A stretch of 64,000 bases of DNA, from assembly GCF_001005315.1 (NCBI RefSeq), contig NZ_LBMG01000003.1, positions 1-64,000 on the forward strand. Reading direction: 5' to 3'. The notes below the pieces were generated by a model. It searched no databases. It saw nothing but the letters and a program-made list of their open reading frames with translations, and was not told the origin of the DNA. Made by a program: the position numbers and the translations under genes. Source of the DNA: Kordia jejudonensis. GTDB taxonomy: Bacteria > Bacteroidota > Bacteroidia > Flavobacteriales > Flavobacteriaceae. Below, in pieces: positions 19,121 through 35,647 of the stretch (positions are counted from its first letter, which is position 1; each line of letters starts with the position of its first letter).

Positions 19121-19126
19121 AATAAG

Positions 19127-19144
19127 GTGGTCCCACTTGGGCTC
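19127..19144. repeat. attL: displaced tRNA 3' end
   Basis: 18 bases identical to 35573-35590. It matches the T-arm 3' half and acceptor end of the tRNA but is followed by unrelated sequence, so it is the chromosomal remnant left by integration. Confidence 0.85.
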
Positions 19145-19572: not shown

Positions 19573-20010
19573 CTACAAAATATTTTTATTATCCTTAAAA
19601 CTATAAAAAGAGTCTTTTGTGACAATTAAATGATCTAGTAAAACTAAATCAACTAGTTCACAGGCTTCTTTAAGTTTTGAAGTTAAGTGTTTGTCAGACC
19701 TACTAGGAACTAACTTCCCTGATGGATGGTTGTGTAATAATACTATTGCAGAAGCATGCCCTTTTAATGCAATACTTAAAATGATTTTTATGTCTACATG
19801 ACTGCTTGCTACTCCACCTTTAGATAAATCATAAATTCCTAGTACTGCATTAGCCCTATTGAGTAGCATTATCTTCACTTCTTCTTGAAATTCAATGATA
19901 TTCATATCCCAATGAGCTAAAGCTACTTCATGTACTATTTTACTATTATTTACAGTGATACTCTTATCTTCATGATCTGAGTAAACCACTTTAATTTCTC
20001 GAACTTTCAT
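19573..20010 (-). CDS. RadC / JAB-domain protein
   Basis: 145 residues from the ATG giving MKVREIKVVYS; the longer frame to 20049 adds 13 unlikely residues over a hairpin. It has the MPN/JAB metalloprotease-like motif: LLHNHPSGKLVPSRSD (the HxH..S..D signature) and the ASSHVDIKIILSIALKGHA helix before it. RadC-like proteins are very common on Bacteroidota mobile elements; despite the name a DNA-repair role is unproven. The N-terminal HhH domain of full RadC is absent. It is the last gene of the element's minus-strand genes. Confidence 0.85.
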   Translation of the reverse strand: MKVREIKVVYSDHEDKSITVNNSKIVHEVALAHWDMNIIEFQEEVKIMLLNRANAVLGIYDLSKGGVASSHVDIKIILSIALKGHASAIVLLHNHPSGKLVPSRSDKHLTSKLKEACELVDLVLLDHLIVTKDSFYSFKDNKNIL

Positions 20011-20025
20011 AATTAAAAAATTAAA

Positions 20026-20080
20026 ACCTGTCCCAAAATGACTAGACACATATTTAGTGAAGTGTCAAAAAAGGACAGGT
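20026..20080 (-). terminator. Hairpin terminator between 131-aa gene and JAB gene
   Basis: Inverted repeat ACCTGTCC (20026-20033) / GGACAGGT (20073-20080) with an inner GACAC/GTGTC pair; on the minus strand it is followed by a T-rich run. It includes one TGACTAG motif (20039-20045). Confidence 0.5.
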
Positions 20081-20088
20081 AATTAAAA

Positions 20089-20484
20089 CTAGATAGCTTG
20101 TTGAGCTAATTGTGAAGCTCCATTTTGAGAGAATACAGAAGTATCTGCCATTAATTGGTTTATAGATTCATCTTGTTTGGCTTGCTCATTTTCTGGTACA
20201 AATACCCATCTGTGAGTAAGTACAAGTTCTTCTCCTGTTTCTTTAACCACGTAAGTGTATGGCTCTACTTCTTTCTTTACAATATTACCTTGCATCTCTG
20301 AGCCTATAAGAGCCTTGCAAGTTTTTTCATCAAATGTGCTTGTAACATAAGCCTTTTTAGCTGTAGCATAGAATTGCCCCGTTTCTTTACTTAAAGACAT
20401 TTCTACACCACCTTGTAATTCTAAAATAAAGAATGGAGTTCCATCCTCTTTTTCTCTTTGTTTAAATCCAATAATTCTAACCAT
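20089..20484 (-). CDS. Hypothetical element-encoded protein, 131 aa
   Basis: 131 residues. The N-terminal half is beta-rich (MVRIIGFKQREKEDGTPFFILELQGGVEM), followed by a basic-acidic mixed region and a Gln/Ser-rich tail (QNGASQLAQQAI). Its size, the beta-strand start and the polar tail are compatible with a small single-stranded-DNA-binding or recombination accessory protein, and the element also encodes a Sak4-like ATPase; this is inference, and no OB-fold signature is certain. It lies upstream of the JAB gene on the same strand. Confidence 0.6.
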   Translation of the reverse strand: MVRIIGFKQREKEDGTPFFILELQGGVEMSLSKETGQFYATAKKAYVTSTFDEKTCKALIGSEMQGNIVKKEVEPYTYVVKETGEELVLTHRWVFVPENEQAKQDESINQLMADTSVFSQNGASQLAQQAI

Positions 20485-20985: not shown

Positions 20986-22221
20986 ATGACTAATTTTATA
21001 GATTTATTTTCAGGAGCAGGTGGTTTATCAGAAGGCTTTATGAGGGCTGGATTCAATCCAATTGCACATGTGGAAATGAACAAAGATGCTTGTGATACCC
21101 TAAAAACAAGAACTGCTTACCATTACCTAAAGGATAATAATAGCATAGAAACATACCACAAATACTTAAAAAAGAAAATAACTAGAGAAGAGTTTTGGAA
21201 TTCAGTACCTCGAAATTTAATTGACTCAGTTATCAATACTGAAATCTCAAAAAAAACTCTCAATCCAATATTTGAACAAATAGATTCTTCATTAGGAGAT
21301 AAGAATGTAGATTTAATTATTGGAGGTCCACCATGTCAAGCTTATTCAATTGTAGGAAGAGCTAGAGACCCAAAAGGAATGGTTGACGACCCAAGAAATC
21401 ACCTTTACAAGCATTATGTAGGCTTTTTAAAAAAGTATGAACCTAAAATGTTTGTGTTTGAAAATGTCCCTGGTATTCTATCTGCTAGTAATGGCTCTTT
21501 TTTAAAAAAGATTTTCAGTGCAATTGATAGAGCAGGTTATAAAATAGAAATTCCATCAACAAAACATCTTAACTCAAAAAACTTTAATGTCCTACAGGAC
21601 AGGAAAAGAGTTATAATGATAGGTTGGAAAAAAGGTTCTAAGTTCAAGTATCCTGATTTTGAAGAAAAGCCAATTGAATATAATCTCGGGAAGAGTTTGT
21701 TTTCTGATTTACCTAAACTAAAACATGGAGAAGGCTCTTTAGGTGTTGTTAAGTATGCCAAACCAGTAACTGATTACTTACAGGAAACAGGTATCAGAAA
21801 TGGAATTGATTTTACTACTCAGCATATTGCTAGACCCCATAATGAGACGGATTTAGAGATTTACAGAATAGCGGTTAACTTACTTCTTAAAAAAGGCAAA
21901 AGATTAAACTACGCTGATTTACCTAAAAGACTAATTAAGCATAAAAACACAACTTCATTTACAAACAGATTTCAAGTTGTAAACCCTAATGGCATATCAA
22001 ATACTGTAGTTGCACATATAGCTATGGATGGTCATTATTATATTCATCCAGATATCAAACAAAATAGGTCTATCTCACTAAGAGAGGCTGCTAGGCTTCA
22101 ATCATTCCCTGATGATTTCTTTTTTGAAGGTAGTAGGACTGCTGCATTTAAACAAATTGGTAATGCAGTACCTCCATTAATGGCTGAGGGTATTGCTCAT
22201 AAAATCAAGGAAATGCTCTAG
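20986..22221 (+). CDS. C5 cytosine DNA methyltransferase
   Basis: 411 residues with the ordered motifs of Dcm-type enzymes: motif I DLFSGAGGLSEGF (about 6-18, SAM binding), motif IV GGPPCQAYS (113-121, catalytic C117), motif VI FENV (158-161), motif VIII QDRKRVIMIG, and motifs IX-X ending QIGNAVPPLMAEGI. It transfers a methyl group to cytosine C5 in a specific DNA site. The insertion between motifs I and IV (about 40-105) is longer than in small enzymes. It is first in a five-gene operon; the next ATG is 1 nt after its stop. It likely marks self DNA for the system encoded downstream. Confidence 0.93.
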   Translation: MTNFIDLFSGAGGLSEGFMRAGFNPIAHVEMNKDACDTLKTRTAYHYLKDNNSIETYHKYLKKKITREEFWNSVPRNLIDSVINTEISKKTLNPIFEQIDSSLGDKNVDLIIGGPPCQAYSIVGRARDPKGMVDDPRNHLYKHYVGFLKKYEPKMFVFENVPGILSASNGSFLKKIFSAIDRAGYKIEIPSTKHLNSKNFNVLQDRKRVIMIGWKKGSKFKYPDFEEKPIEYNLGKSLFSDLPKLKHGEGSLGVVKYAKPVTDYLQETGIRNGIDFTTQHIARPHNETDLEIYRIAVNLLLKKGKRLNYADLPKRLIKHKNTTSFTNRFQVVNPNGISNTVVAHIAMDGHYYIHPDIKQNRSISLREAARLQSFPDDFFFEGSRTAAFKQIGNAVPPLMAEGIAHKIKEML

Positions 22222-22222
22222 T

Positions 22223-23692
22223 ATGGATGAATATAGAGCTGAAAATGCAAGACCTAACCCAAAATCAACAATAAATTCTTATAGAAGTTTTGGCTATAAT
22301 TTATCTACAGCTATTGCAGATATTGTGGATAATAGTATTTCTGCAAATGCAGACTTAGTAGAAGTAGACTATAAATGGGAAGGAAAAAAGTCATTCATCT
22401 CTATCATTGACAATGGCAATGGGATGAACCTGGAAGAGCTTATTGAAGCAATGACTCCCGGAAGCAAAGACCCTGAAGAAATTAGAAGCGAAAATGACTT
22501 AGGTAGATTTGGCATGGGACTTAAAACAGCTTCATTCTCTCAATGCAAACGACTTACTGTAATAACAAAAAAGAAAGGCTATAAAACAATAAAGAGGTGT
22601 TGGGATATTGACTACATCAATCAAGTTGAAGAATGGGTTTTATTAGATTATATTTCAGACTCAAGCTTTATAGAACTTCTAGACAAGTTTGATTCTGGAA
22701 CATTAGTATTATGGGAAAATCTAGACAGAATTGTTGGGGATGCTCAGAATAATAATGAAAGTGTAAAAAATGCTTTCTATCAAGAAATGTCTATTGTTAA
22801 AGAGCATCTTGGACTTGTTTTCCATAGATTCATTGAAAACTCTCGCCTAATCCTGAGCTCCAACTCTTATTCTATTGAGGCTTGGAATCCATTCCTTTAT
22901 AATCTTACTACTAAACCAGAGATGGGGCAACCTGAAAGATTAAGTAATAATGTTGAAGTAACATATTACATCCTACCCCATATGTCAAGAATATCACATG
23001 ACGAGTATGAAAAATCTGGAGGACCTCTAGGCTGGTTCAATCAACAAGGCTTTTATATCTATAGAGGAGATAGGCTTTTAGTATCAGGAGACTGGTTAGG
23101 ACTTGAAAAGAAAAGAGACTATTCCAAATTAGCTAGAATTGCTGTAAACTTTCCAAATACTGGAGATTTTGATTGGAATTTGGATATAAAAAAATCTACA
23201 GCAACACCTCCTATCGAAATACGTAGAGAATTATCTCGAATAGCTAAAATCGCTATTAAAAAGTCTGCTAAGATTTATAATTGGAGAGGGCAGAAATCTA
23301 TTTCACAAATCGGTAGTGAAAATAACTTGGAAAAGCTCTGGAAAGACACTACAAATAGGGAAGGAATTAAAAAATATCAGATAAATAGAAAACATCCAAT
23401 AGTAGTTCAAGCTCTAGAGATAGAAGGTTCAAAGAAGATTTTTTCCAAAACACTTAAGCTAATAGAAAGTAATATACCTATTGAACTTATTCTTTACAAT
23501 CAAAATGAAGACCCTTCTCATCATGAATTAGAAAAAATATCTGAAACTCCAGATGATGCTTTAATTCAGTTAGCTATTGATTTGTTTAAAATAAATATAG
23601 AAAATGGCATACCTGAGTCACTAGCAAAACAGCAAATAATGAACTCTGTACCTTTCAACCTTTTCCCACTAATAAACGACTATTTAAAATGA
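22223..23692 (+). CDS. MORC/MutL-like GHKL ATPase
   Basis: 489 residues from the ATG just after the methyltransferase stop; an upstream TTG-type start at 22193 would overlap that gene. The N-terminal ATPase has the three GHKL motifs: IADIVDNSISANA (31-43), DNGNGM (63-68) and GRFGMGLKTASF (94-105), followed by an S5-fold region. The C-terminal third is charged and helical and not recognised. MORC-like ATPases next to a methyltransferase, Z1 helicase and nuclease were described computationally by Iyer, Abhiman and Aravind (2008) as restriction-modification-type systems. It may act as an ATP-gated DNA clamp; that is inference. Its end overlaps the Z1 gene by 4 nt. Confidence 0.88.
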   Translation: MDEYRAENARPNPKSTINSYRSFGYNLSTAIADIVDNSISANADLVEVDYKWEGKKSFISIIDNGNGMNLEELIEAMTPGSKDPEEIRSENDLGRFGMGLKTASFSQCKRLTVITKKKGYKTIKRCWDIDYINQVEEWVLLDYISDSSFIELLDKFDSGTLVLWENLDRIVGDAQNNNESVKNAFYQEMSIVKEHLGLVFHRFIENSRLILSSNSYSIEAWNPFLYNLTTKPEMGQPERLSNNVEVTYYILPHMSRISHDEYEKSGGPLGWFNQQGFYIYRGDRLLVSGDWLGLEKKRDYSKLARIAVNFPNTGDFDWNLDIKKSTATPPIEIRRELSRIAKIAIKKSAKIYNWRGQKSISQIGSENNLEKLWKDTTNREGIKKYQINRKHPIVVQALEIEGSKKIFSKTLKLIESNIPIELILYNQNEDPSHHELEKISETPDDALIQLAIDLFKINIENGIPESLAKQQIMNSVPFNLFPLINDYLK

Positions 23693-26517
23693 GTAACATA
23701 AACGAAACTGCTAGAATGATTGCTCATTCTTTATTAGACCACGAGAAAAAAAATGCAGAAATAACAGAGGAAGTAATCCTTTCAATAATAGAGAAAGTAT
23801 CTGCAATAGATATTATACCTGGTCAAAAAATTAATAAAGAAGATTTATTTGAAGTTTTAATGTCTGATTTAAGTATTGGACAAGGCTCAATTACTTCAAT
23901 GACAGATGATATTGAACCTTGGCTAAATGATGAAAAAGCAAATATCGATTTTGAACTTTGGAACAGGTATAAACTATATTTAAAAGAAAAAGATAAGTCT
24001 TTTCCAATACCATCACTTGATGACTTTACTGATAAGATTCTGGATAAATGCGTTAATCCTAAACAGAAAGGTTCTTGGGATAGAAGAGGAATGGTAGTAG
24101 GACATGTTCAGTCTGGGAAAACCTCAAACTATGTTGGGCTAATTAATAAAGCTACTGATGCAGGTTATAAATTAATCATTGTTATTGCAGGGACAATAAG
24201 CTCTCTTAGAAGACAGACTCAAGAAAGGATTGATTCTGGGTATATAGGTAGGAATAGCTCCTTATACCTAAGAAATAAGGGAGAAAACCGAATTAAAGGT
24301 GTTGGAAAGTATAAGGTCAGGACAGATATATATCCTTTAACTTCCTCATATTATCTTAAAGGAGATGAAGGTGATTTTAGCACAAAACAATTACATAATT
24401 CTAACATACCAATAGGTAAAAACCCTGTTGTATTTGTCATAAAGAAAAACAAAACTATTCTTGAAAACTTAATAGACTGGTTGTCACACAATGAAGATAT
24501 TAAGACAATTGAAGGTCGGAAAAAATTGATGAATATACCTGCATTAATTATTGATGATGAATCAGATTATGCCTCAGTAAATACAACTAAAGATATTAAT
24601 GAAGTTAAGACAATAAATAAGCTAATAAGAGTCTTACTTAACTTGTTTGACCAAAATACATTTATTGGCTACACAGCTACACCTTATGCTAACTTATTTA
24701 TCTCTCAAGAATATAATGAAGACTTAACTACTTATGTTAAAGGCAAAGAATACTTCATTGGAGATGATTTATTTCCTAAGCATTTTATTGTCAATATTAA
24801 AGCCGCTAAAAACTATATAGGAGCTTCTACGTTATTTGGGCTAGAAGACCCTAATTCTGAAGAAAGCAGAGAGCCATTAGACATTTTTAGACCAATTTAT
24901 AGTGAAGAATATAATCCACCACTTTTTGAAAAAATAAATAAGCATAATAAAGACGATTTACCTGAACATCTTCCAAATAGTCTGAAGTATGCAATCAAAT
25001 CTTATATTCTTACTTGTGCAATTAGAAGACTTAGAGGGCATGAAAAAAAGCACAATTCAATGCTTATTCACGTTGCTTTATATGTTAAATGGATAGACAG
25101 AGTGTCTCTGCTTGTCAACGAATTAATAAAAGAGTTTACCAATAATATTGAGGCTAATGATGCTGAGTTCATTGAAGACATGAGAAACATCTTTGAATCT
25201 GACTTCAAACCAACTACTGAAAATGTTTTAGAAAATCTAAGGTATAAAGACAATAGGATTAAATCTCATACTTGGGAGGAAGTAAAACAAGAAATTAGAA
25301 CAGCTATTAAAAAGTTTGATGTTAGAGCTGTACATGGTACTACTTCATTATCAAAAATAGATTACCACAACATCTCCAACATAGACTACGACAGACATGA
25401 AAACGGCTTATCTGTAATTGCCATAGGTGGAGGTAAACTGTCAAGAGGAATTACCCTTGAAGGTCTTTCTGTTAGTTATTATTTGAGAACTACTAAAATG
25501 TATGATTCACTTATGCAAATGGGAAGATGGTTTGGATATAGACCAGGTTACGTTGATTTATGCAGACTTTTTACTAATAATAGAATCTTTGACTGGTTTA
25601 ACCATATCACAATGGCTACTGAGGAAATGAGAAATGATTTTGACATTATGAGTTCTCAAAACCTAAAGCCTAAAGATTTTAAATTAAAAGTTAGAAACCA
25701 CCATGGTCTATTGGCTGTAACAAGTGCTTCTAAATTATATTGGTCTACTAATATAAAAATTTCATTTTCTGGCACTAATCTTCAAACCTATCTTTTAAAC
25801 AAAGACTTTGACTCTATAAAAAATAACTTCAAACAATTACAGGCTTTAACCAAAAGGTTGAGTAATGCTAAAACAGTTGATAAAAGAGGAAAATTGAGAT
25901 ATTTAATCTTTAATGATGTGAGCACAGAACCTCTAACAGAATTTATAAATGGATTCAGTGTAGACACACCTCATATAAACAAGCAAGTAATAACAGACTA
26001 TATTGTATTACAAAAAGCTAAAAAGAGTGTAAAAGAGTGGACTATATGTATAGTTTCTAATACAGATAAAGAAGTAGGTTTTTATATAAATGAAGATGAT
26101 AGGAAAAACAGAAAAAAAACTAAAGGTCTTTCCACGCAGTACACTTTAATCTCTGAAGGGAAAACTCATGATATGACTTGTAGTATAAGAAACCAGACTG
26201 AACCATCTGAGCAATATAAAATAACAAAAAATCAAATTGATGACTTAGTTGATAGACAAGTTGATTTAGAAAAACAAGATTTAGGGTCATACAGTTCAAT
26301 TAAGCAACAAAGAAAAATAGAAAGAAAAGGATTGCTTTTAATTTATGGGTTAGATGAAAGAGGGACAAGTGATTTGACAAACAATATGCCTGTAGTTGGT
26401 TATAGTATTTATTTTCCTGAAATAGATAACGAAACCAAAACATCTTATACGGCTACAATCTTTGATGATTTTGACGAAGAAGTTATGCCTGAAGAGGTAA
26501 ACCATAAAAGCGAATAA
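23689..26517 (+). CDS. Z1-domain superfamily II helicase-like ATPase
   Basis: 942 residues. Walker A GHVQSGKT (138-145), a DEAD-box-like LIIDDESDYAS (about 287-296), motif III-like GYTATPYANLF (328-338) and, in the second RecA domain, GGGKLSRGITLEGLS followed by QMGRWFGYRPGYVDLCR (motifs V/VI with the arginine finger). The Z1 domain sits across the second helicase lobe. It is expected to hydrolyse ATP and translocate on or remodel DNA in the defence complex. The ATG overlaps the MORC stop (ATGA) and the next gene begins 2 nt after its stop, so the subunits are probably made in fixed ratio. Confidence 0.9.
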   Translation: MSNINETARMIAHSLLDHEKKNAEITEEVILSIIEKVSAIDIIPGQKINKEDLFEVLMSDLSIGQGSITSMTDDIEPWLNDEKANIDFELWNRYKLYLKEKDKSFPIPSLDDFTDKILDKCVNPKQKGSWDRRGMVVGHVQSGKTSNYVGLINKATDAGYKLIIVIAGTISSLRRQTQERIDSGYIGRNSSLYLRNKGENRIKGVGKYKVRTDIYPLTSSYYLKGDEGDFSTKQLHNSNIPIGKNPVVFVIKKNKTILENLIDWLSHNEDIKTIEGRKKLMNIPALIIDDESDYASVNTTKDINEVKTINKLIRVLLNLFDQNTFIGYTATPYANLFISQEYNEDLTTYVKGKEYFIGDDLFPKHFIVNIKAAKNYIGASTLFGLEDPNSEESREPLDIFRPIYSEEYNPPLFEKINKHNKDDLPEHLPNSLKYAIKSYILTCAIRRLRGHEKKHNSMLIHVALYVKWIDRVSLLVNELIKEFTNNIEANDAEFIEDMRNIFESDFKPTTENVLENLRYKDNRIKSHTWEEVKQEIRTAIKKFDVRAVHGTTSLSKIDYHNISNIDYDRHENGLSVIAIGGGKLSRGITLEGLSVSYYLRTTKMYDSLMQMGRWFGYRPGYVDLCRLFTNNRIFDWFNHITMATEEMRNDFDIMSSQNLKPKDFKLKVRNHHGLLAVTSASKLYWSTNIKISFSGTNLQTYLLNKDFDSIKNNFKQLQALTKRLSNAKTVDKRGKLRYLIFNDVSTEPLTEFINGFSVDTPHINKQVITDYIVLQKAKKSVKEWTICIVSNTDKEVGFYINEDDRKNRKKTKGLSTQYTLISEGKTHDMTCSIRNQTEPSEQYKITKNQIDDLVDRQVDLEKQDLGSYSSIKQQRKIERKGLLLIYGLDERGTSDLTNNMPVVGYSIYFPEIDNETKTSYTATIFDDFDEEVMPEEVNHKSE

Positions 26518-26519
26518 CT

Positions 26520-27500
26520 ATGTTAGATTTAAAATCAATTTGGGAATTGCAAAAGCCTTCAAAAGATGAATTAATAATAAAGACTAGAATTGATATACTA
26601 CCTCAATTCAATTGCTTTGCAGCTACAAATCATCTAACAGGGAATCATCTATATCTAATGGAGGTATCCTCACATACTATAATTCCTGAATTTAAAAATT
26701 CAAGTTTTAAAGGTGTTAGAATAGATATATTTGACCTTGATGACAGTAAAGAGTTAAATATATATTTAATTGATAATGAGCTTAAAGACATATTTAGCCT
26801 ATTTGTTGAAAATATTATTGAGGAAATTACAAATGTACCAACAGAAAATGAAGCAATTACAATTACATCAAACGTCATTCAAAAATGGAAAAAGCTATTT
26901 GACAAACTAAATACCCAAGGGTTGACACTAGAGCAACAAAAAGGGCTTTTAGGTGAACTTTTATTTCTAAATGAGTTAATTGACAGTAATATTAACCCAG
27001 ACTACCTTTTAAACTGCTGGACTGGTCCTGATTATGAAGATAAAGATTTTACTCTTGGAGCAACTTGTTTTGAAATCAAATTCACCACATCTAAACTGCC
27101 TAGAATTAAAATCACTAGTGAACGACAACTAGATACTTCTAATGTTGAAAATCTCTTTTTAAATAATTACGCATCTGAAACATTAAAGGAAAACGGTATT
27201 TCACTTAATTCTGCTGTAGATATTATTCGTGACAAAATATCTAATAACTCAGCTACTCTAAAGTACTTTAATGAAAAACTTGAATCAGCAGAATATTATG
27301 ATGAAGATAGAGATAATTACAATGCTCAATATGGAGTAAAATCAAGGTCTTTATATCAAGTCAATGATTCTTTCCCAAAACTAACTACTGATAGCCTACC
27401 TCAAGGAATTTATAACACCTCTTATTACATTGAAAATTCCGCTATTGAAGAATATAGAGTTGATTTTGATACAATAATTAATGAAGTAAAGAATGAATAG
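26520..27500 (+). CDS. PD-(D/E)XK motif nuclease-like protein
   Basis: 326 residues. The conserved core is GLLGELLFLNEL (142-153, with E146), then CWTGPDYEDKDF (166-177, candidate D176) and CFEIKFTTS (183-191, E185-x-K187): the E...D...ExK pattern of the restriction-endonuclease-like fold. This family (DUF4420-type) occurs with Z1 helicases and MORC ATPases. It is the likely DNA-cleaving subunit of the operon. The frame overlaps the AIPR gene by 8 nt. Metal dependence and cleavage site are not predictable. Confidence 0.85.
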   Translation: MLDLKSIWELQKPSKDELIIKTRIDILPQFNCFAATNHLTGNHLYLMEVSSHTIIPEFKNSSFKGVRIDIFDLDDSKELNIYLIDNELKDIFSLFVENIIEEITNVPTENEAITITSNVIQKWKKLFDKLNTQGLTLEQQKGLLGELLFLNELIDSNINPDYLLNCWTGPDYEDKDFTLGATCFEIKFTTSKLPRIKITSERQLDTSNVENLFLNNYASETLKENGISLNSAVDIIRDKISNNSATLKYFNEKLESAEYYDEDRDNYNAQYGVKSRSLYQVNDSFPKLTTDSLPQGIYNTSYYIENSAIEEYRVDFDTIINEVKNE

Positions 27501-29880
27501 AGCTTTAAGAAATTACATAGATGAAGTAAAGTCTGAAGTTGCAGCACTAGTATATTCAGATGGTGAGGGCTCTAGTTTCGAAGATAAATTTACTGAGTAT
27601 TGTATTGAGGTTCTTGAGTCCATAGGTAAGACTGATGGCGCTAGAGTTTTATCCTTCATTCATCCTAATTCAAAAGGGGGAATTGATTGGAAAATTAACG
27701 GTTATTGCTTGAAAGACTCTTACAAAGATGATGGTAATAAGAGTTATTTTGAAACCTTAGAACTGTTCATTACTTATTATAATCCTGATGATTATGATTA
27801 CAATATTCTTTCAACAGAATTTACTAAGACCTTAAATCAAATAAAGAGATTCCTAAACGGAGCTATTAAAAGGCATATAGACTATATAGATTCATCTAAT
27901 GATGAATTAGTCGAGCTTCTAAAAATTATAGGAAAGCAAAACCATCTTTTTGATAGAGTTAATATCTACTTATTAATGAATGGTAATTCAAATCAGAAAG
28001 TAGATAAAATAAAAATAAAAGGAATAGATGAAAGCTTAAGCATAAATCTTCATGTTTGGGACATAAATAGATTTTTTAGAATTAATGAGACGAATAGTAA
28101 TAGGGAGCCTATTGAAATTAATTTTGCTGATTTCTTAGATAACAATCAACAAGGAATTCAATGTTTAAAAGTCCCTACTATAGATGAATTATATGATTGT
28201 TACTTAGCTATTATTCCTGGTTATGTTTTAGCTAATTTGTATAAAGAGTTTTCTAATGAATTATTAGAAAGTAATGTAAGAGCTTTTCTTGGGCAAGCAG
28301 GTAGGTACAATAAAGGTATTAGAGATACTATTCGAGAAAAACCACAAATGTTCTTGCCATACAATAATGGTATAACTGCTACAGCTAATGAAGTCAAAAC
28401 AAAAGTCATAAACAACCAGTTATTCGTTACAAAATTAAATGATTTTCAAATTGTAAATGGAGGACAAACTACAGCTTCTTTGTATCACACCCAAAAAAAA
28501 TATAAAGATGCAGACTTAAGTAGTATTTCCGTTCAAATGAAGTTAACTGTTATTAAGGACATTGATAAGAAAAATATAGAAGTTCCTAATATTGCCAGAT
28601 ATGCTAATAGTCAAAATAAGGTTACAGAATTAGACTTATCATCTAACAACCCATATTTTGTAAAAATAGAAAGCTTATCTAGAAAGAAATATGTTGCTAA
28701 TCCAGAGAATAAAAACCAATCTATTCTGTGGTATTTTGAAAGAGTAAAAGGACAATACAGAGAAGCTATTAATAAGCTTACTCCAAGTATGCAAAAGAAG
28801 TTTAAAGAACAAAATCCAACAAAACAGAAGTTTGTAAAATCTGACATTGCCAAGTACATGAATCTTTGGGAGCAAAAGCCTTATATGGTATCAAGAGGTT
28901 CTCAGAAAAACTTTATTGATTTTACCAAAAGCATTAATGAGTTAGTTGAAAAAAACAAAATGCCAGGTGAGAATTTCTATAAAAAATTTATTGCCAATGC
29001 AATCATTTTCAAGACTGTTGATAAGCTCTTTGGAAGAAAGAATGTTGATGCTATAGGTGACACTAACTTAAAATCTTTTTCTGTAGCATATACTGTAGCT
29101 TACTACCATTTCTTAACTAATAATAGAACTGACTTGTGGAAAATCTACAATGAGCAAAGGCTTAAAGATTCTTTTATAGAGATGTTTAGAGAGCTACTTG
29201 TATTTGTGTATAACCATTTAACTAAAAATGCAGTAAATACGCTTATATCAGAATATGCAAAAAAAGAATTGTCTTGGAAAAGATTACAAGAAGAAAAGTA
29301 CAACCTTGACAAGAATGTTTTAGAGGAGTATTTAATTAGTCAAGAGGAGGCTAACATAAGAGCAAAGGAAAAAGAAGTTGATGAAAATGATACAGAAAAC
29401 AACCTTTTTGTAATAAGTGAAATCAAGAAACATGGTATACAGTTTTGGGATGGTCTAAAAAAGTACGTAGACAAAAACTCTGTTGATGGGTTAGATTTTT
29501 ATGAGCTATTTAATTTAGTGAAAAAGTTAAAAGAGAATAGAAACTTAAACTCTAAAGATTGCCATGTTGGTAAAAAAGGATTAGGATTCATAGTCAATAA
29601 CCCTGATAAAGTCGATGAAATTAAAAAGCTTTCAGACCTAAAGGAAAAAGAAGTAGTTGAGATAAAACCAATTTACGACAGACTAAAATTACTATCATCA
29701 GAAGAATGGAAAAAAATCATTGATTTAGGTGAGCAAACTAAGGTTTTTGAATATAAAGAACTATCCAATATTAAATACACTAGTTCAAAACTTTTAAAGA
29801 GGGAATCTATAAAAGAAAAAGCACTACTGAAATGTTTTGAATCTCTAAATAAAGTGAAAAAATTTGGGATCAAATATTAA
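27493..29880 (+). CDS. AIPR family protein
   Basis: 795 residues. The AIPR domain hallmark is seen at about 286-330: FLPYNNGITATANEV followed by FQIVNGGQTTASLYHT, and then IARYANSQNKVTELDLSSNN. The family is named for abortive infection phage resistance; members occur alone or in multi-gene defence operons. The N-terminal part (1-240) includes a restriction-nuclease-like region (EDKFTEYCIEVLE...GGIDWKINGY) that may be a degenerate PD-(D/E)XK domain; this is tentative. The C-terminal 250 residues are charged and helical. It is the last gene of the operon and converges with the DUF3871 gene. Confidence 0.88.
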   Translation: MNRALRNYIDEVKSEVAALVYSDGEGSSFEDKFTEYCIEVLESIGKTDGARVLSFIHPNSKGGIDWKINGYCLKDSYKDDGNKSYFETLELFITYYNPDDYDYNILSTEFTKTLNQIKRFLNGAIKRHIDYIDSSNDELVELLKIIGKQNHLFDRVNIYLLMNGNSNQKVDKIKIKGIDESLSINLHVWDINRFFRINETNSNREPIEINFADFLDNNQQGIQCLKVPTIDELYDCYLAIIPGYVLANLYKEFSNELLESNVRAFLGQAGRYNKGIRDTIREKPQMFLPYNNGITATANEVKTKVINNQLFVTKLNDFQIVNGGQTTASLYHTQKKYKDADLSSISVQMKLTVIKDIDKKNIEVPNIARYANSQNKVTELDLSSNNPYFVKIESLSRKKYVANPENKNQSILWYFERVKGQYREAINKLTPSMQKKFKEQNPTKQKFVKSDIAKYMNLWEQKPYMVSRGSQKNFIDFTKSINELVEKNKMPGENFYKKFIANAIIFKTVDKLFGRKNVDAIGDTNLKSFSVAYTVAYYHFLTNNRTDLWKIYNEQRLKDSFIEMFRELLVFVYNHLTKNAVNTLISEYAKKELSWKRLQEEKYNLDKNVLEEYLISQEEANIRAKEKEVDENDTENNLFVISEIKKHGIQFWDGLKKYVDKNSVDGLDFYELFNLVKKLKENRNLNSKDCHVGKKGLGFIVNNPDKVDEIKKLSDLKEKEVVEIKPIYDRLKLLSSEEWKKIIDLGEQTKVFEYKELSNIKYTSSKLLKRESIKEKALLKCFESLNKVKKFGIKY

Positions 29881-29913: not shown

Positions 29914-30933
29914 TCAACTCAAAAACCAACGGTAGTTAGAATTACCATTGAGAGTTTGTGCTAGACCTTTTGAAAATTCATAAGCATTGACGTTCCTTTC
30001 TGAAAAAGTATCAATATAGCTGCTCTTATTGGCTGATGTGAATAGATTGTATACATTCCAAAGATTAATATTTCCATCTTCATTTTTACAAAACCTTTCA
30101 TCTTGATAATAATCTTTAGCAATAGAACTAATCTGCCCATCATTTAAAAGCAATTGTGGAATCTGTAACTTTTCATTTTTTGGTAGATAGTTAAAAAGCT
30201 TTGCTCTTCCAATAAGTTGTGCGAACTGTGATTCAGTAATACTATATTCAGTTAGAGCTAACATTTCTTTTAAATGCTTTTCAGCATCATAATTGGTAAT
30301 TAAGTCCTGTACTTTTACTGCTAACTCATTTACACTACCTACACGTATTTCTGACTGCATACCATCTGTGTTTATACATAGATTGCAACATACCATATTT
30401 TGAAACCCTATAAATACTTGGAACTTCTCAACAGACTTCTTGGAATACAAATTCTCTCTATTATATGCTCGCACTCCACCAACCATCAAAGACAGCTTGT
30501 TTCCATTGATAGTTTCTGTGATACTAGGTACACGAATTATAAATGCCATTCTTTCGTAGTATTGTGTCTTTTCATGATCTAATAAGTCTTTAGCTGACTT
30601 GTGTATTGCACTAGGTGTTCTACCTTTAATTTGATGGCTTATTCTTATTTCTGGTGCATCTATGCTATGATGTGAAAACACCTTACTAACACAATTATAT
30701 GCTACCTCAACAAATTCTTGATGACTTATTGTGCGTTCATTATCCTTACTAAAGACTGGTATTATACAATCCTTTTGTAAATGAGAAAGACTAACATTTT
30801 TAGTATTAGCCTCTATAAATGGATTCTGTGAATACTCCGTTTTGACTAGTTGGATTGAGTTACTTTCAATTTGTGTCTTAGGAGTAATAGGAACTAATTC
30901 TAGGTTATGCATTGGTATGACTTGTCTGTCCAT
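29914..30933 (-). CDS. DUF3871 family protein
   Basis: 339 residues of the DUF3871 family, found mostly on Bacteroidota mobile elements; function unknown. Recognisable parts are the central SLMVGGVRAYNRENLYSKKSVEKFQVFIGFQNMVCCNLCI and a C-terminal NLWNVYNLFTSANKSSYIDTFSERNVNAYEF. The latter resembles DUF932-like proteins thought to be plasmid or phage encoded. The start is either here or at the ATG at 30912 (MHNLELV), which would cut the overlap with the upstream ATPase gene from 29 to 8 nt. Translationally coupled to that ATPase. Confidence 0.8.
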   Translation of the reverse strand: MDRQVIPMHNLELVPITPKTQIESNSIQLVKTEYSQNPFIEANTKNVSLSHLQKDCIIPVFSKDNERTISHQEFVEVAYNCVSKVFSHHSIDAPEIRISHQIKGRTPSAIHKSAKDLLDHEKTQYYERMAFIIRVPSITETINGNKLSLMVGGVRAYNRENLYSKKSVEKFQVFIGFQNMVCCNLCINTDGMQSEIRVGSVNELAVKVQDLITNYDAEKHLKEMLALTEYSITESQFAQLIGRAKLFNYLPKNEKLQIPQLLLNDGQISSIAKDYYQDERFCKNEDGNINLWNVYNLFTSANKSSYIDTFSERNVNAYEFSKGLAQTLNGNSNYRWFLS

Positions 30934-31774
30934 TTTGGCTAAAGTTTTGAGGATTTAATAATTGTTTTTTTGATTGAATAGTTTCTTTCTGAAGCTTAAA
31001 ATCTTCATCTAAATCTTTCATTGTATAATACTGATTGTAAAGCTGTCTTAAAGCTTCTATATCATTACAGTTCTTTATTTTCTCTCTAACCTCATCTAAA
31101 CTAGCACCAGAATTACACCATTCTAATATTTTCTTACCTGTAGAAGCATTAATTACAAATTCAGGTTTACCCATAAATAAGCCTGTACGATCTTTAGAAC
31201 TAGTAGCAAAGTGTTTAATATCTACATCAAATACAAGGGTAAATTCATAATCCGTTCCATCTCTAGAAATAGATTTAAGACCAACTTTTTCAGGAATGTA
31301 TTTTCCATCTTTTTGCTGTAAAACATAGTCTTGTTTAGTACGCATAGTGGCAATAATATGTGTTGGAGATTGAAGTATTTTGTTTAAAAATACTTTTTCA
31401 AGAGGTTTGATTTTTGCCCAATTTGTAAAGCTATTCCCTGCTAGTTTTGAATGGTAGTCTAATAGATATTCCCAACAGTGTGAAATACTATCTAAGATTA
31501 CAACTTCCATATTAGCTTTTTCACATACTTCTATTGCTTCTACATATTTTTTTGGTGTAAATGGTGGTTGTAATGATAATACATTATAATTACCTAAATG
31601 TGCATACAAATCTGCACTACCATTCTCAGTATCTATAATAGCAACTTTAGATAAGTCTCCATTAGTTAGTCCTTTTGCTAGAAGCAAACTAGAATATGTT
31701 TTACCACTTCCAGAACTGCCTTGTAATGCCAGTTTGATTTTAGCTTTCTTACGTTCAGATTGTCTTAATTTCAT
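30905..31774 (-). CDS. Sak4-like RecA-fold ATPase
   Basis: 289 residues. Walker A LQGSSGSGKTYSSLLLA (about 17-33), Walker B MEVVILDSISHCWEYL and a sensor-like HIIATMRTKQDYVLQ segment: the compact RecA-like NTPase of phage Sak4 single-strand annealing/recombination proteins. Such proteins help phages and mobile elements replicate or recombine DNA with a partner SSB. The C-terminal tail is helical. It lies between the DUF3987 gene and the DUF3871 gene, all minus strand; a hairpin at 31827-31854 precedes it. Confidence 0.8.
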   Translation of the reverse strand: MKLRQSERKKAKIKLALQGSSGSGKTYSSLLLAKGLTNGDLSKVAIIDTENGSADLYAHLGNYNVLSLQPPFTPKKYVEAIEVCEKANMEVVILDSISHCWEYLLDYHSKLAGNSFTNWAKIKPLEKVFLNKILQSPTHIIATMRTKQDYVLQQKDGKYIPEKVGLKSISRDGTDYEFTLVFDVDIKHFATSSKDRTGLFMGKPEFVINASTGKKILEWCNSGASLDEVREKIKNCNDIEALRQLYNQYYTMKDLDEDFKLQKETIQSKKQLLNPQNFSQNGQTSHTNA

Positions 31775-31854: not shown

Positions 31855-31894
31855 CATACTGCAACAATTGCAATTATTGCAAATTTTGTAATTC

Positions 31895-33226
31895 TTATAT
31901 GGGTAGTTTTTTATATTTCCCATGCTTTACTTTCTCTAGTATTCTTTCAACTTGCCATCTTTTCAATATTTCTGCAAAAGTTCTTTCAGGTATTTCAAGT
32001 TTTCTTCCAATTTCAACACCTTCACTTCTCTTAAAATCATCTGGGAGTTCTTTGTAAAGTTGTCTATCTTGTAGAGTTAATCTCTTTACTTCTTTTTCAT
32101 ATTTATCAAAAACAAACAAGCTATGATTTACTAAATATTTTATCAAACCTAATGCTGAATTTAAATCAATATCATTAGTATAAATCTCAACTGAATTATC
32201 TTCAATATTTGAAGAATTTCTTAGTACTGTAAAAATCATTATTATTCTAAAAACTATCAATCCCAATCTTTTAGTAACTGATACAAAAGCATCTTTATCC
32301 CCTAAAAAAGTATTGGTTATAGCACTCATTTCATCATTGAAGACTTTCCATTGAACAGAAGTCATTTTAACTTCTATTAGGTCTAATTTTAGAAGTCTCT
32401 CATATAATTGCTTAACATCATTTCCAGCTTGTTCGAAAAGTTGTTTCTTATTAGATGCATTTACTTTAGGGGAAACATCTTTCCACCCCTCAACTTCATC
32501 AAAATAATAAAATAAAAACCTACTAAAAAGTCCACTTTCCTTAGAGGAAATCAAAGGTTTTATTTGATTTGGTGTACCAGATAACACCATTGATAATTTT
32601 GGCTTATCTACTTCATAAAATCTATCGTTTCTACTAATACTACAAGTTTCGTGTTGAAATGCTTTTCTCATTAAATCTGAAAAATCCCCCCAATCTTGTT
32701 TTAACATGTTAGACAATGAATCTGCTTCACTCTCAAATATCAATGCACTATCTTCTGAATACTTCAAATGCATATAAAACTTGGAACTACTAACATTAGC
32801 AGGTATAATCTTTATAGCTAGTTTTGGTTGACTAACTAAATCATTTCCAGAACTATCTTGAAATTCCTTTAACTTCCTTTTATACTCTGCATATTTAGCA
32901 TCATGAATTGGTTTAATTAGTAATTTACTCCAATCCATTACTCCTTTCCCAGATGCTGGTGGTGCAATAATAAAAACGTACAAGTTTGGATTGTATTCCC
33001 TATCATCATATTGCCCATAAACATTAGGTAAACAAGCGCTTAAAACTCCTATTGAAGATAATAAGATAATATCTTTTTCCCTGTCTGAAAATTGATTAGA
33101 TAATCCGCTTAATGGCTCTGGTAAGTTGGTATATACTTCATTTGGTATATAGTTTTTTGAACTTACAGTCTCTGCAATAACTGATGAACCCTCAAAAATT
33201 GCTTTTAAATTTGTTTTGTTTTTCAT
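31895..33226 (-). CDS. DUF3987 domain protein (replication-type P-loop protein)
   Basis: 443 residues. A P-loop-like motif (FIIAPPASGKGVMDWSKLL, about 88-106) and the downstream IFESEADSLSNMLKQDWGDFSDLMRKAFQHE segment identify DUF3987. Homologues on mobile elements and phages resemble primase-helicase ATPase halves and often stand where a replication initiator would. Members are usually about 450-800 residues; this short form lacks an N-terminal primase domain. The C-terminal end has a likely winged helix (GVEIGRKLEIPERTFAEILKRWQVERILEK). Likely used for element replication after excision; this is inference. Confidence 0.8.
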   Translation of the reverse strand: MKNKTNLKAIFEGSSVIAETVSSKNYIPNEVYTNLPEPLSGLSNQFSDREKDIILLSSIGVLSACLPNVYGQYDDREYNPNLYVFIIAPPASGKGVMDWSKLLIKPIHDAKYAEYKRKLKEFQDSSGNDLVSQPKLAIKIIPANVSSSKFYMHLKYSEDSALIFESEADSLSNMLKQDWGDFSDLMRKAFQHETCSISRNDRFYEVDKPKLSMVLSGTPNQIKPLISSKESGLFSRFLFYYFDEVEGWKDVSPKVNASNKKQLFEQAGNDVKQLYERLLKLDLIEVKMTSVQWKVFNDEMSAITNTFLGDKDAFVSVTKRLGLIVFRIIMIFTVLRNSSNIEDNSVEIYTNDIDLNSALGLIKYLVNHSLFVFDKYEKEVKRLTLQDRQLYKELPDDFKRSEGVEIGRKLEIPERTFAEILKRWQVERILEKVKHGKYKKLPI

Positions 33227-33344: not shown

Positions 33345-34160
33345 TTAAGTGTGAAAGTTTCTATCTCTAATAATATTATTTCTAATATGTTGGTAATCCA
33401 CTAAAGATAAAAGTGTTTTTATATCTGCTGTTATATCAATAGATTCAGCTTTAGTTTTATATGGAACAGAAAATATATGAAGAAATACACCTACAACCCT
33501 AAAACATTGATTTTCTGAGGTTAAATTCTCTTTCAAAAAACTAAAAAAAATCTTTATGAAATCATCTTTAAAACGTTCAGCATTCTTTTTTAAATCAAAT
33601 AGGTTTGTTCCATTCAGTATTTCTACTTTGCGAGTTTCAAAATTCTCTTTATTAATATTAAACCCTTTAAAAATAGCTTCATATACATCATCAATAACAA
33701 AGGGGTTTTGTAGTGATTCATTGCCAAGTTTATTTTTAAAGAGTATGCCGCTGTAGGGAGTTCTACTTTCACTGTGTAGATACTCTGAAAGAAAATTCAA
33801 AAGCTTTTCAAAATCTTTTTTGTAATTACTAAAGCCTATTCCTGCAAATCCTAATGATTCATTAAAATTATTTGAAAAGATTTCTTGTAATGCACAACCT
33901 AGTATTATGAAGTCTTCAACTTTATCCATCATGCATATATGAGTTACCAAAGATTCTAGAGTATCATTATTATACTTTGGTATTGAAAAACTTCTGTAGA
34001 TATTTACAAAAGGTTTAGAAAACTTATTTAATTCTTCATTAAGTGACATCTCTTTTACATCAAATGTAATGAGTTCAATATCTTCTGATATTGATTCATA
34101 AGTCTGGTTTTGCCCTTTAAACTTTCTCCAATTGTAAATCATTAACTGCAAATAATGCAT
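33345..34160 (-). CDS. Hypothetical element-encoded protein
   Basis: About 271 residues from the ATG giving MHYLQLMIYNW; a TTG start at 34178 (277 aa) and an ATG at 34142 (265 aa) are alternatives, and the sequence over these starts is a TTGCA-type repeat. The protein is soluble, mainly helical, rich in Asn, Lys and Phe. I do not recognise a domain. It lies just downstream of the integrase (about 40 nt) and upstream of the DUF3987 gene, where control or accessory proteins are usual. Confidence 0.6.
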   Translation of the reverse strand: MHYLQLMIYNWRKFKGQNQTYESISEDIELITFDVKEMSLNEELNKFSKPFVNIYRSFSIPKYNNDTLESLVTHICMMDKVEDFIILGCALQEIFSNNFNESLGFAGIGFSNYKKDFEKLLNFLSEYLHSESRTPYSGILFKNKLGNESLQNPFVIDDVYEAIFKGFNINKENFETRKVEILNGTNLFDLKKNAERFKDDFIKIFFSFLKENLTSENQCFRVVGVFLHIFSVPYKTKAESIDITADIKTLLSLVDYQHIRNNIIRDRNFHT

Positions 34161-34198
34161 AATTTGCAAATTCTGCAAATTGAACCTAAAAAAAATAA

Positions 34199-35407
34199 TT
34201 ATTTTAGTTTCTTTTTCAATGCTATAATATGCTCACTTACTTTCTTCTGTACCACTTTAGCATAATGCTTTTGAGTGATATCTAATTTAGAATGCCCTAA
34301 TAATTCAGAAACCACTTCCATTGGTACATCATTATATAGCAATACAGTAGTGGCAAATGTCTTTCTAGCAATATGATGAGTCAACCTTTTTTCAATACCT
34401 ACTATTTCTGCAATTTCCTTTAAGTATGAATTAAACTTTTGATTAGATATTACTGGCAGTAATTTATTTGAAGATATATTATTTTGACTAGTCAAAATAG
34501 CTAGAGCTTTTGGTAATAAAGGAACAGATACTTTAGCATTTGTTTTCTTCCTATGTATTTGAATCCATTTATTACCATCAAATCCATCAATTACATGTTC
34601 AGAACTTAAAGCTGACATTTCTGCATAAGCTAGTCCTGTATAACAGCAAAATATAAACATATCTCTTACCTGTTCTAATCTAGTTTGAGCAAAAGAATAT
34701 TCTTCTAGTTTAGCTAATTCATTACTATCTAAATAAATTATTTGGGTTTTAGGGTTTTTACATGTATACATAACAAAAGGATCTTTATCTAAATATCCTT
34801 CAGACAATCCAATTTTCACAATACGTTTAAATCTCTGAATTGCTTTATAAGTTGAGGATTGAGCCAGTTTCTTTTCAGTTTTAAGATAGAACTCGTATTC
34901 TTTAATAAAACTAATTTCAAGGTCTTTAAATTGAAAATCATTCTTCTTGTAATGAAATGAAATAAAGTCTTTTAAAAGAGTTTTAGCTTGCTTGTATTTC
35001 CACAATGTAGGCAATACATATTCCTTACCTATTAACTTTTCTACCTTATCATTGTGTGCTTGAAATACTTCTAAAATAGTCTTGTCTTTTTTTGTTGCTA
35101 TACCTTTAAGTTGAAGATAAATATCTTCTGCATCAAACTGTTCATTGTTAACTTGTAGAAACAAAAAAGCCTGATTAATTTGTTGTTTAATCAGACTTAA
35201 CTGTGTATTGAGATAATCATTGTTTTTATTGGGTGGACTAGCTTTTTGTAACTTACTTTTCCAATCTTTAGGATTAATAAAAAAACCTGTAGAAAACTGC
35301 TTTCTTTTACCTTTAAAAGTTAATCTACATTTAATAGGACACTTATTTTGCTTATTCTGTTTTGTCCTGTCAATTAAAAACAGAACACTTAATTTATTGT
35401 TATTCAT
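34199..35407 (-). CDS. Tyrosine-type site-specific integrase
   Basis: 402 residues. An N-terminal arm-binding Arm-DNA-bind_5-like domain (1-95), a SAM-like core-binding domain (about 100-200) and a C-terminal catalytic domain. The C-terminal box HIARKTFATTVLLYNDVPMEVVSELLGHSKLDITQKHYAKV carries H-x-x-R, the GH pair and the nucleophile Tyr. The usual first arginine in TGLR is Ala here (CCYTGLAYAEMSAL), as is known for many Bacteroidota integrases including IntDOT. It lies 165 bp from the tRNA target and is expected to integrate and excise the element at the 18-bp repeat. Confidence 0.93.
   Translation of the reverse strand: MNNNKLSVLFLIDRTKQNKQNKCPIKCRLTFKGKRKQFSTGFFINPKDWKSKLQKASPPNKNNDYLNTQLSLIKQQINQAFLFLQVNNEQFDAEDIYLQLKGIATKKDKTILEVFQAHNDKVEKLIGKEYVLPTLWKYKQAKTLLKDFISFHYKKNDFQFKDLEISFIKEYEFYLKTEKKLAQSSTYKAIQRFKRIVKIGLSEGYLDKDPFVMYTCKNPKTQIIYLDSNELAKLEEYSFAQTRLEQVRDMFIFCCYTGLAYAEMSALSSEHVIDGFDGNKWIQIHRKKTNAKVSVPLLPKALAILTSQNNISSNKLLPVISNQKFNSYLKEIAEIVGIEKRLTHHIARKTFATTVLLYNDVPMEVVSELLGHSKLDITQKHYAKVVQKKVSEHIIALKKKLK
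34491..34508. repeat. 18-bp perfect palindrome inside the integrase gene
   Basis: ATTTTGACTAGTCAAAAT, made of two inverted copies of ATTTTGACTAG, a word that also occurs in the left end of the element (19431-19441, and reverse at 19518-19528) and, nearly, at 30839-30849. Candidate binding site of an element-encoded protein. Confidence 0.5.
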
Positions 35408-35572: not shown

Positions 35573-35590
35573 GTGGTCCCACTTGGGCTC
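35573..35590. repeat. attR: 18-bp copy within the tRNA 3' end
   Basis: Identical to 19127-19144. It keeps the tRNA gene complete after insertion. Confidence 0.85.
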
Positions 35591-35647
35591 GAACCAAGGA
35601 CCCTCTGATTATGAGTCAGATGCTCTAACCAGCTGAGCTATGGGACC
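35574..35647 (-). tRNA. tRNA with CAT anticodon (Met or Ile2)
   Basis: 74 nt. Acceptor GGTCCCA pairs with TGGGACC plus discriminator A; D-arm AGCTCAGCTGGTTAGAGC; anticodon arm CTGACTCATAATCAG with anticodon CAT (35613-35611); T-arm TTGG-TTCGAGC-CCAA. CCA is not encoded. A CAT anticodon can be elongator Met or, after lysidine modification by TilS, an isoleucine tRNA reading ATA; the sequence alone does not settle it. It is the integration target of the element. Confidence 0.93.

Follow-up and report, generated by a model that had tools for sequence, protein, structure and literature searches.

An MZA-like operon on an integrative element of Kordia jejudonensis combines a conserved MORC-Z1-DUF4420-AIPR core with an apparently exchangeable DNA methyltransferase

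Five plus-strand genes at positions 20,986 to 29,880 of Kordia jejudonensis contig NZ_LBMG01000003.1, within the 64,000-nucleotide (nt) stretch analyzed here (hereafter, the window), encode a 5-methylcytosine (m5C) DNA methyltransferase (MTase; gene A), a MORC ATPase (B), a Z1 protein (C), a PD-(D/E)XK protein (D) and an AIPR protein (E). Judging from comparison with related loci, B, C, D and E seem to form one co-evolving machine, with the MTase as an exchangeable partner that appears to have been replaced in place in some clades. By its gene content, the operon is of a kind already described, matching what Miller et al. 2022 (PMC9523054) present as a putative Type II system, rather than representing a new system; the details added here are absent from the passages of the open-access literature that we examined. 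We consider it somewhat probable that the operon, which an integrative element carries, is an ATP-dependent restriction system with an m5C self-mark, of the MZA or Miller Type II kind.

Results

Organization and motifs of the operon

The genes of the operon are as follows.

20986..22221, plus strand: A, m5C DNA methyltransferase, 411 amino acids (aa); Pfam DNA_methylase, 5.9e-63; PPCQ with Cys117, ENV and QxRxR motifs
22223..23692, plus strand: B, MzaB-like MORC/GHKL ATPase, 489 aa from the ATG at 22223; HATPase_c_3, 1.7e-35
23689..26517, plus strand: C, MzaC-like Z1 protein with superfamily 2 (SF2) motifs, 942 aa; Pfam Z1, 2.4e-78
26520..27500, plus strand: D, MzaD-like DUF4420 protein of the PD-(D/E)XK type, 326 aa, with E146-D176-E185xK187; Pfam DUF4420, 5.7e-66
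27493..29880, plus strand: E, MzaE-like AIPR protein, 795 aa; Pfam AIPR, 6e-90, and AIPR_N, 5.6e-20

All five open reading frames (ORFs) are intact and as closely packed as originally predicted, with gaps of 1 nt between A and B (counting from the ATG at 22223) and 2 nt between C and D, and overlaps of 4 nt between B and C and 8 nt between D and E. The longest ORF of gene B (22193-23692) begins with a TTG, from which the MzaB residues are numbered here. Pfam, PADLOC and NCBIfam bear out the gene identities proposed from the letters alone, and the key motifs named at the time (MTase C117, the GHKL motifs, the Z1 Walker A, ExK, and NNGIT and VNGGQTT of AIPR) are present in the window and conserved in an alignment with 78 related loci. 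In this alignment, C117 of the MTase is kept in 78 of the 78 ungapped rows, D46-N47-S48 and G104/R105/G107/G109/K111 of MzaB in 79/79 rows, E146/D176/E185/K187 of MzaD likewise in 79/79, and N291-N292-G293 with N322-G323/Q325-T326 of MzaE in all 77 ungapped rows. The four MzaC motifs, namely, Walker A (138-145), DDESD (289-293), TATP (329-332) and QMGRWFGYR (610-618), retain G143-K144-T145, D289-D290-E291, T329-A330-T331-P332 and Q610-G616, respectively, in 79/79 rows.

The MTase has DrmMII as its top PADLOC model (569 bits) and M.HaeIII (4e-32) among its nearest solved relatives, and structures of MORC4, MutL and PMS1 match B at 2e-4 to 2e-3. The Glu at one GHKL position of these three proteins, where all 79 MzaB rows contain Asp (Asp43), is the general base; from the Asp, one could infer a slower or longer-held ATP state in MzaB. 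Searches of solved structures with the C, D and E sequences, single or as profiles, produced nothing meaningful, only a few weak, chance-like matches.

The genome contains one AIPR match and one Z1 match; a second m5C MTase is encoded elsewhere (G000:C35:45885-47090). Scans for promoters, Bacteroidetes-type promoters and terminators performed no better on the real DNA than on shuffled sequences, and the only Rfam match over 16000-38000 was a tRNA.

A collinear four-gene core in many phyla

A scan with a Z1 profile, covering one genome per species, yielded at least 596 pattern matches; at least 591 were relatives, and the 80 best of these were used. Together with 20 stretches from genomes of the class and one viral contig, these made up the 101 loci analyzed (loci are labeled L and genomes G, with three digits); given that the loci were gathered via Z1, all tallies are conditional on the presence of an MzaC relative. 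Of the 101 loci, 81 contain the full set of B, C, D and E, and in every one of these the four genes are encoded in that order on one strand. The remaining 20 lack at least one of the four, many being cut by contig ends and others divergent (no E in L044-L046; neither D nor E in L060, L063 and L065). The 81 loci come from Bacteroidota (27), Pseudomonadota (13), Actinomycetota (9), Methanobacteriota (4) and additional phyla, 15 having no phylum assignment.

Among 295 genomes of the class, Z1 matches above 200 bits occur at 17 places, 15 of which have an AIPR match nearby and two of which are cut by contig ends; no AIPR match was found near the eight weaker Z1 places in these genomes. Two genomes without a Z1 match hold a high-scoring AIPR, which in G237 follows a DUF4420 gene and in G118 lies on a cut stretch. 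A sigma-factor-like MzaA was detected in 13 loci by clustering and in 16 of the 81 by a profile that possibly catches other sigma proteins.

Several loci differ from this arrangement. A shorter Z1 protein (~620-790 aa) in another gene arrangement was observed in L018-L023, L025, L026 and L044-L047; four such stretches that were read further contain B-like and D-like genes, A in three of them, and AIPR in none. An enlarged Z1 protein (1046-1284 aa) occurs together with A and B, without a separate D, in L060, L062, L063 and L065, AIPR being kept only in L062. The actinobacterial loci L079, L081, L107 and L120 encode a large protein of ~920-1370 aa, which in L120, the one tested, contains RNA polymerase alpha-CTD and sigma region 4 domains, along with a second MORC-like gene near the MTase. 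A protein of 251-263 aa, which in L058 (the locus tested) has a NO VEIN C-terminal domain, recurs in 7 loci.

The methyltransferase is constant but exchanged

An m5C MTase is encoded in 78 of the 81 loci, and the other three end just before B at a contig end; for comparison, any match to this MTase family was found in 43 of 99 whole genomes of the class. The MTase gene lies directly upstream, on the same strand, in 35 loci and elsewhere in 43. When identities are computed pairwise, those of B, C, D and E are correlated with one another (Spearman 0.67-0.85) but only weakly with those of A (0.11-0.28); for the 36 sets, the window among them, whose MTase lies directly upstream, the values are 0.79-0.92 among B-E and -0.02 to 0.09 with A. 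The MTases of the 81 loci range in length from ~330 to 720 aa, with identities down to 28-34% between close cores.

One in-place swap is that of L106 compared with L087, L031, L105 and L127, where A is 33-34% identical, and B, C, D and E are 81-86, 82-87, 76-85 and 72-73% identical, respectively. In the AIPR tree, a seven-member group with L106 makes up one side of a fully supported branch, and the MTase tree rejects this group (approximately unbiased test, p-AU 3.6e-33, a descriptive value given that the group was chosen after the identities had been seen). In a rhizobial-type set, where L116/L123 were compared with L119/L109, identity is 28-29% for A and 79-91% for B-E, the MTase lying at a different place there. 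The original view of the five genes as one functional unit applies best to B-C-D-E, which are collinear in 81/81 loci and correlated in identity, with the MTase as a constant yet exchangeable partner.

Genes connected with m5C repair often accompany the operon: Vsr is encoded in 46 of the 81 loci, an HhH-GPD glycosylase in 14, and either one in 52. Among the Vsr matches in MTase-bearing loci, 32 of 51 are within 1 kb of an MTase, and, for comparison, any Vsr match was found in 27 of 99 whole genomes of the class. We take m5C to be, in all likelihood, a standing mark.

The AIPR subunit lacks the nuclease site of other AIPRs

Of 15 other AIPRs of the class, 12 have a D ... QxK set in the N-terminal domain, one of the remaining three being incomplete, whereas the set is present in 0 of 50 MzaE-type proteins, including E of the window. 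Among these 50, the D column contains N, S, T or H in 49 and D in one, the Q column V, I or L in all 50, and the K column never K. The nuclease site of other AIPRs is lost in the MzaE subgroup. Since MzaE lacks this site and MzaD has an invariant E-D-ExK, MzaD is the likely nuclease, and MzaE would be a platform or a sensor. The original prediction held that the roles of the subunits cannot be read from sequence; this needs amending in part for AIPR, where the absence of the D/QxK site from a subgroup is readable.

The AlphaFold2 model of E (predicted local distance difference test, pLDDT, 86) shows an alpha-beta-beta-beta-alpha N-terminal domain, and E carries a C-terminal helical extension of ~190 aa. 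A passage of a 2012 paper (PMC3506569) assigns the AIPR N-terminal domain to HEPN, in contrast to the alpha-beta-beta-beta-alpha arrangement in the model, and places the N-terminal domain of DndB in the AbiU1/AIPR family. Structural searches with the AIPR core, in which an AIPR protein served as the positive control (E-value 3e-11), yielded weak matches: pNOB8-like ParB-N at ranks 1, 2 and 6 among PDB structures (E-values 0.16-0.51), viral GmrSD_N-annotated proteins (0.003, 0.03 and 0.27), a DNA-sulfur-modification-associated protein (0.09) and a ParB-like protein (0.31). These matches suggest that the AIPR core might be ParB/GmrS/DndB-like, in agreement with the DndB placement in that passage of PMC3506569. 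Profile comparison of the core with the GmrSD_N and DndB families, made with small, rough alignments, was negative (probability < 1%), and the MzaE N-terminal domain had no significant match to McrC, NucC or HamA.

Relation to described systems

The four core proteins are homologues of MzaB-E and follow the same order (PADLOC 3e-149 to 8e-21). MZA (mzaABCDE) was reportedly described by Gao et al. in 2020. The scores of the four proteins are 29-46% of the NCBIfam equivalog cut-offs (in bits, MzaB 390/850, MzaC 600/1500, MzaD 123/420 and MzaE 348/1050), and the operon differs from MZA also in having the MTase as its first gene. No sigma domain was found when 12 proteins of the element were scanned with Pfam, although the window was not scanned with the MzaA model itself. 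Given the sub-cut-off scores and the lack of a detected sigma domain, the operon is not a strict MZA.

The relevant passage of Miller et al. (PMC9523054), where MZA is called validated, describes a putative Type II, with subtypes II-A and II-B, in which a Z1 protein of ~925 aa is combined with a cytosine MTase, AIPR and a PD-(D/E)XK protein (given under the name DUF4220), in association with MORC; identity to mzaBCDE is put at ~20%, and MzaA is missing in most cases. The operon resembles this description in each of these genes, and likewise no sigma domain was found among the 12 element proteins scanned; we found no decisive difference from the passage, the match being to Type II as a whole rather than to one subtype; the Type II core (Z1, DUF4420 PD-(D/E)XK and cytosine MTase) is present in the operon and collinear in its relatives. 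The system, originally rated as little studied, is therefore of a described kind and closer to known systems than was stated.

The proposed link to the MORC operons of Iyer, Abhiman and Aravind 2008 was upheld. In the passages of that paper (PMC2292703) examined here, operons are predicted that combine MORC with this type of helicase and an E-D-ExK protein; the MORC S5 motif GhXhhpXXRhl corresponds to GFYIYRGDRLL in B, and the Z1 helicase motif DThhQXuRhFG to DSLMQMGRWFG in C. The E-D-ExK protein and the frequent MTase are common to both, AIPR is mentioned there in passing only, and prokaryotic MORCs are proposed to be kin of the eukaryotic MORC chromatin proteins. B thus combines the GHKL motifs with S5, with Asp43 where Glu is usual.

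CglI and NgoAVII, according to passages of PMC4267653, share with the operon an m5C MTase and an ATPase with SF2 and Z1 domains, but have a PLD-B3 nuclease where the operon has DUF4420, and contain neither MORC nor AIPR; no PLD-family nuclease was found by Pfam in the five proteins. Similarity to DISARM is confined to the MTase, which scores best against DrmMII, and to a weak DrmE_C likeness of MzaD (2.4e-4, under the curated cut-off), no Drm model besides the MTase ones having matched the five proteins in PADLOC. Passages of PMC10855318, PMC12629846 and PMC5379612 report occurrence alone.

The operon as cargo of a tRNA-Met element

The operon is the cargo of a 16.4-kb tRNA-Met element, with the element as the moving unit. 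Its other features are as follows.

19127..19144, no strand: left attachment-site repeat, an exact 18-bp copy of the tRNA-Met 3' end; homology with the congener element begins at 19124
19573..20049, minus strand: RadC-like element gene; RadC 3.8e-34
20089..20484, minus strand: 131-aa element gene, no Pfam match, common to related elements
29914..30933, minus strand: DUF3871 element gene; 7.5e-141
30905..31774, minus strand: AAA_24 ATPase element gene; 2.3e-17
31895..33226, minus strand: DUF3987 element gene; 1.3e-52
33345..34178, minus strand: 277-aa element gene, no Pfam match
34199..35407, minus strand: tyrosine integrase of the element, beside the tRNA; Phage_integrase 1e-16, Arm-DNA-bind_5 9e-14
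35573..35590, no strand: right attachment-site repeat, inside the tRNA-Met 3' end
35573..35647, minus strand: tRNA-Met, the integration target

In a genome of the same genus (L138), homology begins at window position 19124, and the operon is present at 96-99.9% protein identity. In L139 and L140, the same backbone genes flank other cargo: in L139, an MTase with a UvrD-like helicase and a weak match to a Type III nuclease, and in L140, ORFs of nearly equal lengths. Beyond DUF3871, restriction-modification (R-M) genes that may lie within the element are encoded in L141 (Type III R-M), L144 (Type I MTase with a weak S-subunit match) and L143 (Type I-like). The one protein of L142 that was tested had no match. 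A clean empty site was not shown: in G301 (L212), the left-flank gene lies ~100 nt from the tRNA, but the gene at 16.6-19.0 kb is missing as well. TTGCAA-type repeats at 31858-31900 and 34145-34178 precede two minus-strand element genes and are possible operators or iterons.

All five genes are under purifying selection relative to the L138 copy, which resides in another species of the genus: the ratio of nonsynonymous to synonymous substitution rates (dN/dS) is 0.040 for A, 0.035 for B, 0.037 for C, 0.057 for D and 0.012 for E. This selection and the recurrence of the B-C-D-E order in 81/81 loci argue against a chance arrangement. The synonymous rate (dS) of E is 0.045 (window 27493-29880 against L138:11072-13459), compared with 0.215-0.454 for A-D. 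Because E is nearly identical between the two species while A-D have diverged, its low dS is a sign of recombination inside the operon.

Discussion

The originally proposed defense role is probable, considering that related elements carry R-M genes and that genes for an MTase and a nuclease (the latter by motif only) stand together in the operon. In the ATP-dependent restriction that we favor, the MTase would give host DNA a standing self-mark in the form of m5C, MzaE (an AIPR devoid of the nuclease site) and the MORC clamp (B) would assemble on DNA, the Z1 SF2 motor (C) would move or remodel it, and MzaD would cut DNA not recognized as self. Each part of this scheme, from restriction of DNA, the order of steps and complex formation to cleavage by MzaD, self-protection by methylation and the fold of the AIPR core, is what we infer from the proteins and their relatives. 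CglI and NgoAVII, in which a Z1 ATPase with site-dependent activity is found beside an m5C MTase (PMC4267653, in part), lend support to it.

Several observations weigh against this scheme. The clade of the window is devoid of Vsr, with none encoded in its own genome, and a Foldseek search with the MzaD model (pLDDT 93) returned no match at E-value <= 0.001, only kinase-like ones, so that the nuclease fold of MzaD is unconfirmed by it. Sliding-identity analysis detected no stretch of B-E that turns unrelated upon a change of MTase, that is, no specificity cassette; classical R-M would need a switch of specificity in B-E if its MTases neither have a target in common nor recruit the core. For L106, it is E, but not B, C or D, that is lower throughout (mean 0.725 to L106 compared with 0.810 among the other six), so that E might be adapting to the MTase or have a role in specificity, which slightly lowers the odds of the scheme. 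Among close pairs (C > 60%), E relative to B-D is at +0.010 in 44 pairs with swapped MTases and at +0.017 in 92 unswapped ones (the pairs are not independent), and, with no shift of E seen, the drop in L106 is therefore not general. Of the four core proteins, B has the strongest partial correlation with the MTase among close pairs (0.38-0.42), which may be due to linkage.

The missing specificity switch leads to two readings, in which the core either checks methylation whatever the MTase or is recruited by it. According to the former, which we put forward tentatively, as a possibility with the balance against it, the B-E engine, consisting of a MORC clamp, a Z1 motor, a PD-(D/E)XK nuclease and a pseudo-nuclease AIPR with a ParB/GmrS/DndB-like core, would check m5C without sequence specificity of its own, the differing MTases serving as a swappable license. 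Recruitment, with the MTase as a specificity subunit that, in the manner of Type III or BREX, brings B-E to an unmodified site and can be swapped without change in B-E, would explain why the MTase is constant in uncut loci but exchanged in place, and no specificity domain was recognized in B-E by Pfam, PADLOC or NCBIfam. However, a docking surface common to MTases so divergent in length and in sequence between close cores is not obvious, and the MTases are often on the other strand or kilobases away, so that we regard this option as the less likely of the two, and improbable.

Abortive defense, in which B-E would sense an infection cue via MzaE and act on both host and phage nucleic acid, the MTase being an independent orphan or addiction function, is unlikely in our view, though slightly less so than recruitment by the MTase. 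AIPR takes its name from abortive infection, co-inheritance of the MTase with B-E is not seen, and the sigma-factor-like MzaA of some loci hints at regulation, but the MTase is found in all 78 loci that are not cut before B and lies 1 nt from B in the window, and the AIPR nuclease site is gone in the MzaE subgroup. A role outside defense, as a DNA-maintenance module of the element, for example, a mismatch-repair-like function or a replication aid, could be read from the resemblance of the MORC ATPase to MutL and from the location of the operon on an integrative element; we deem it highly improbable, given that related elements keep the backbone and carry other R-M genes instead, and that this core is found in different surroundings across many phyla.

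The B-E core is spread over bacteria of many phyla and archaea, and the open-access literature surveyed gives no mechanism for it. The loss of the AIPR site, set against the invariant site of MzaD, predicts which mutants would lose defense, and the exchange of MTases over a conserved core makes it testable whether a methylation-based defense must read the sequence of its methylase. If the core indeed checks m5C under a swappable license, the "self" code of a restriction system would change by the replacement of one gene.

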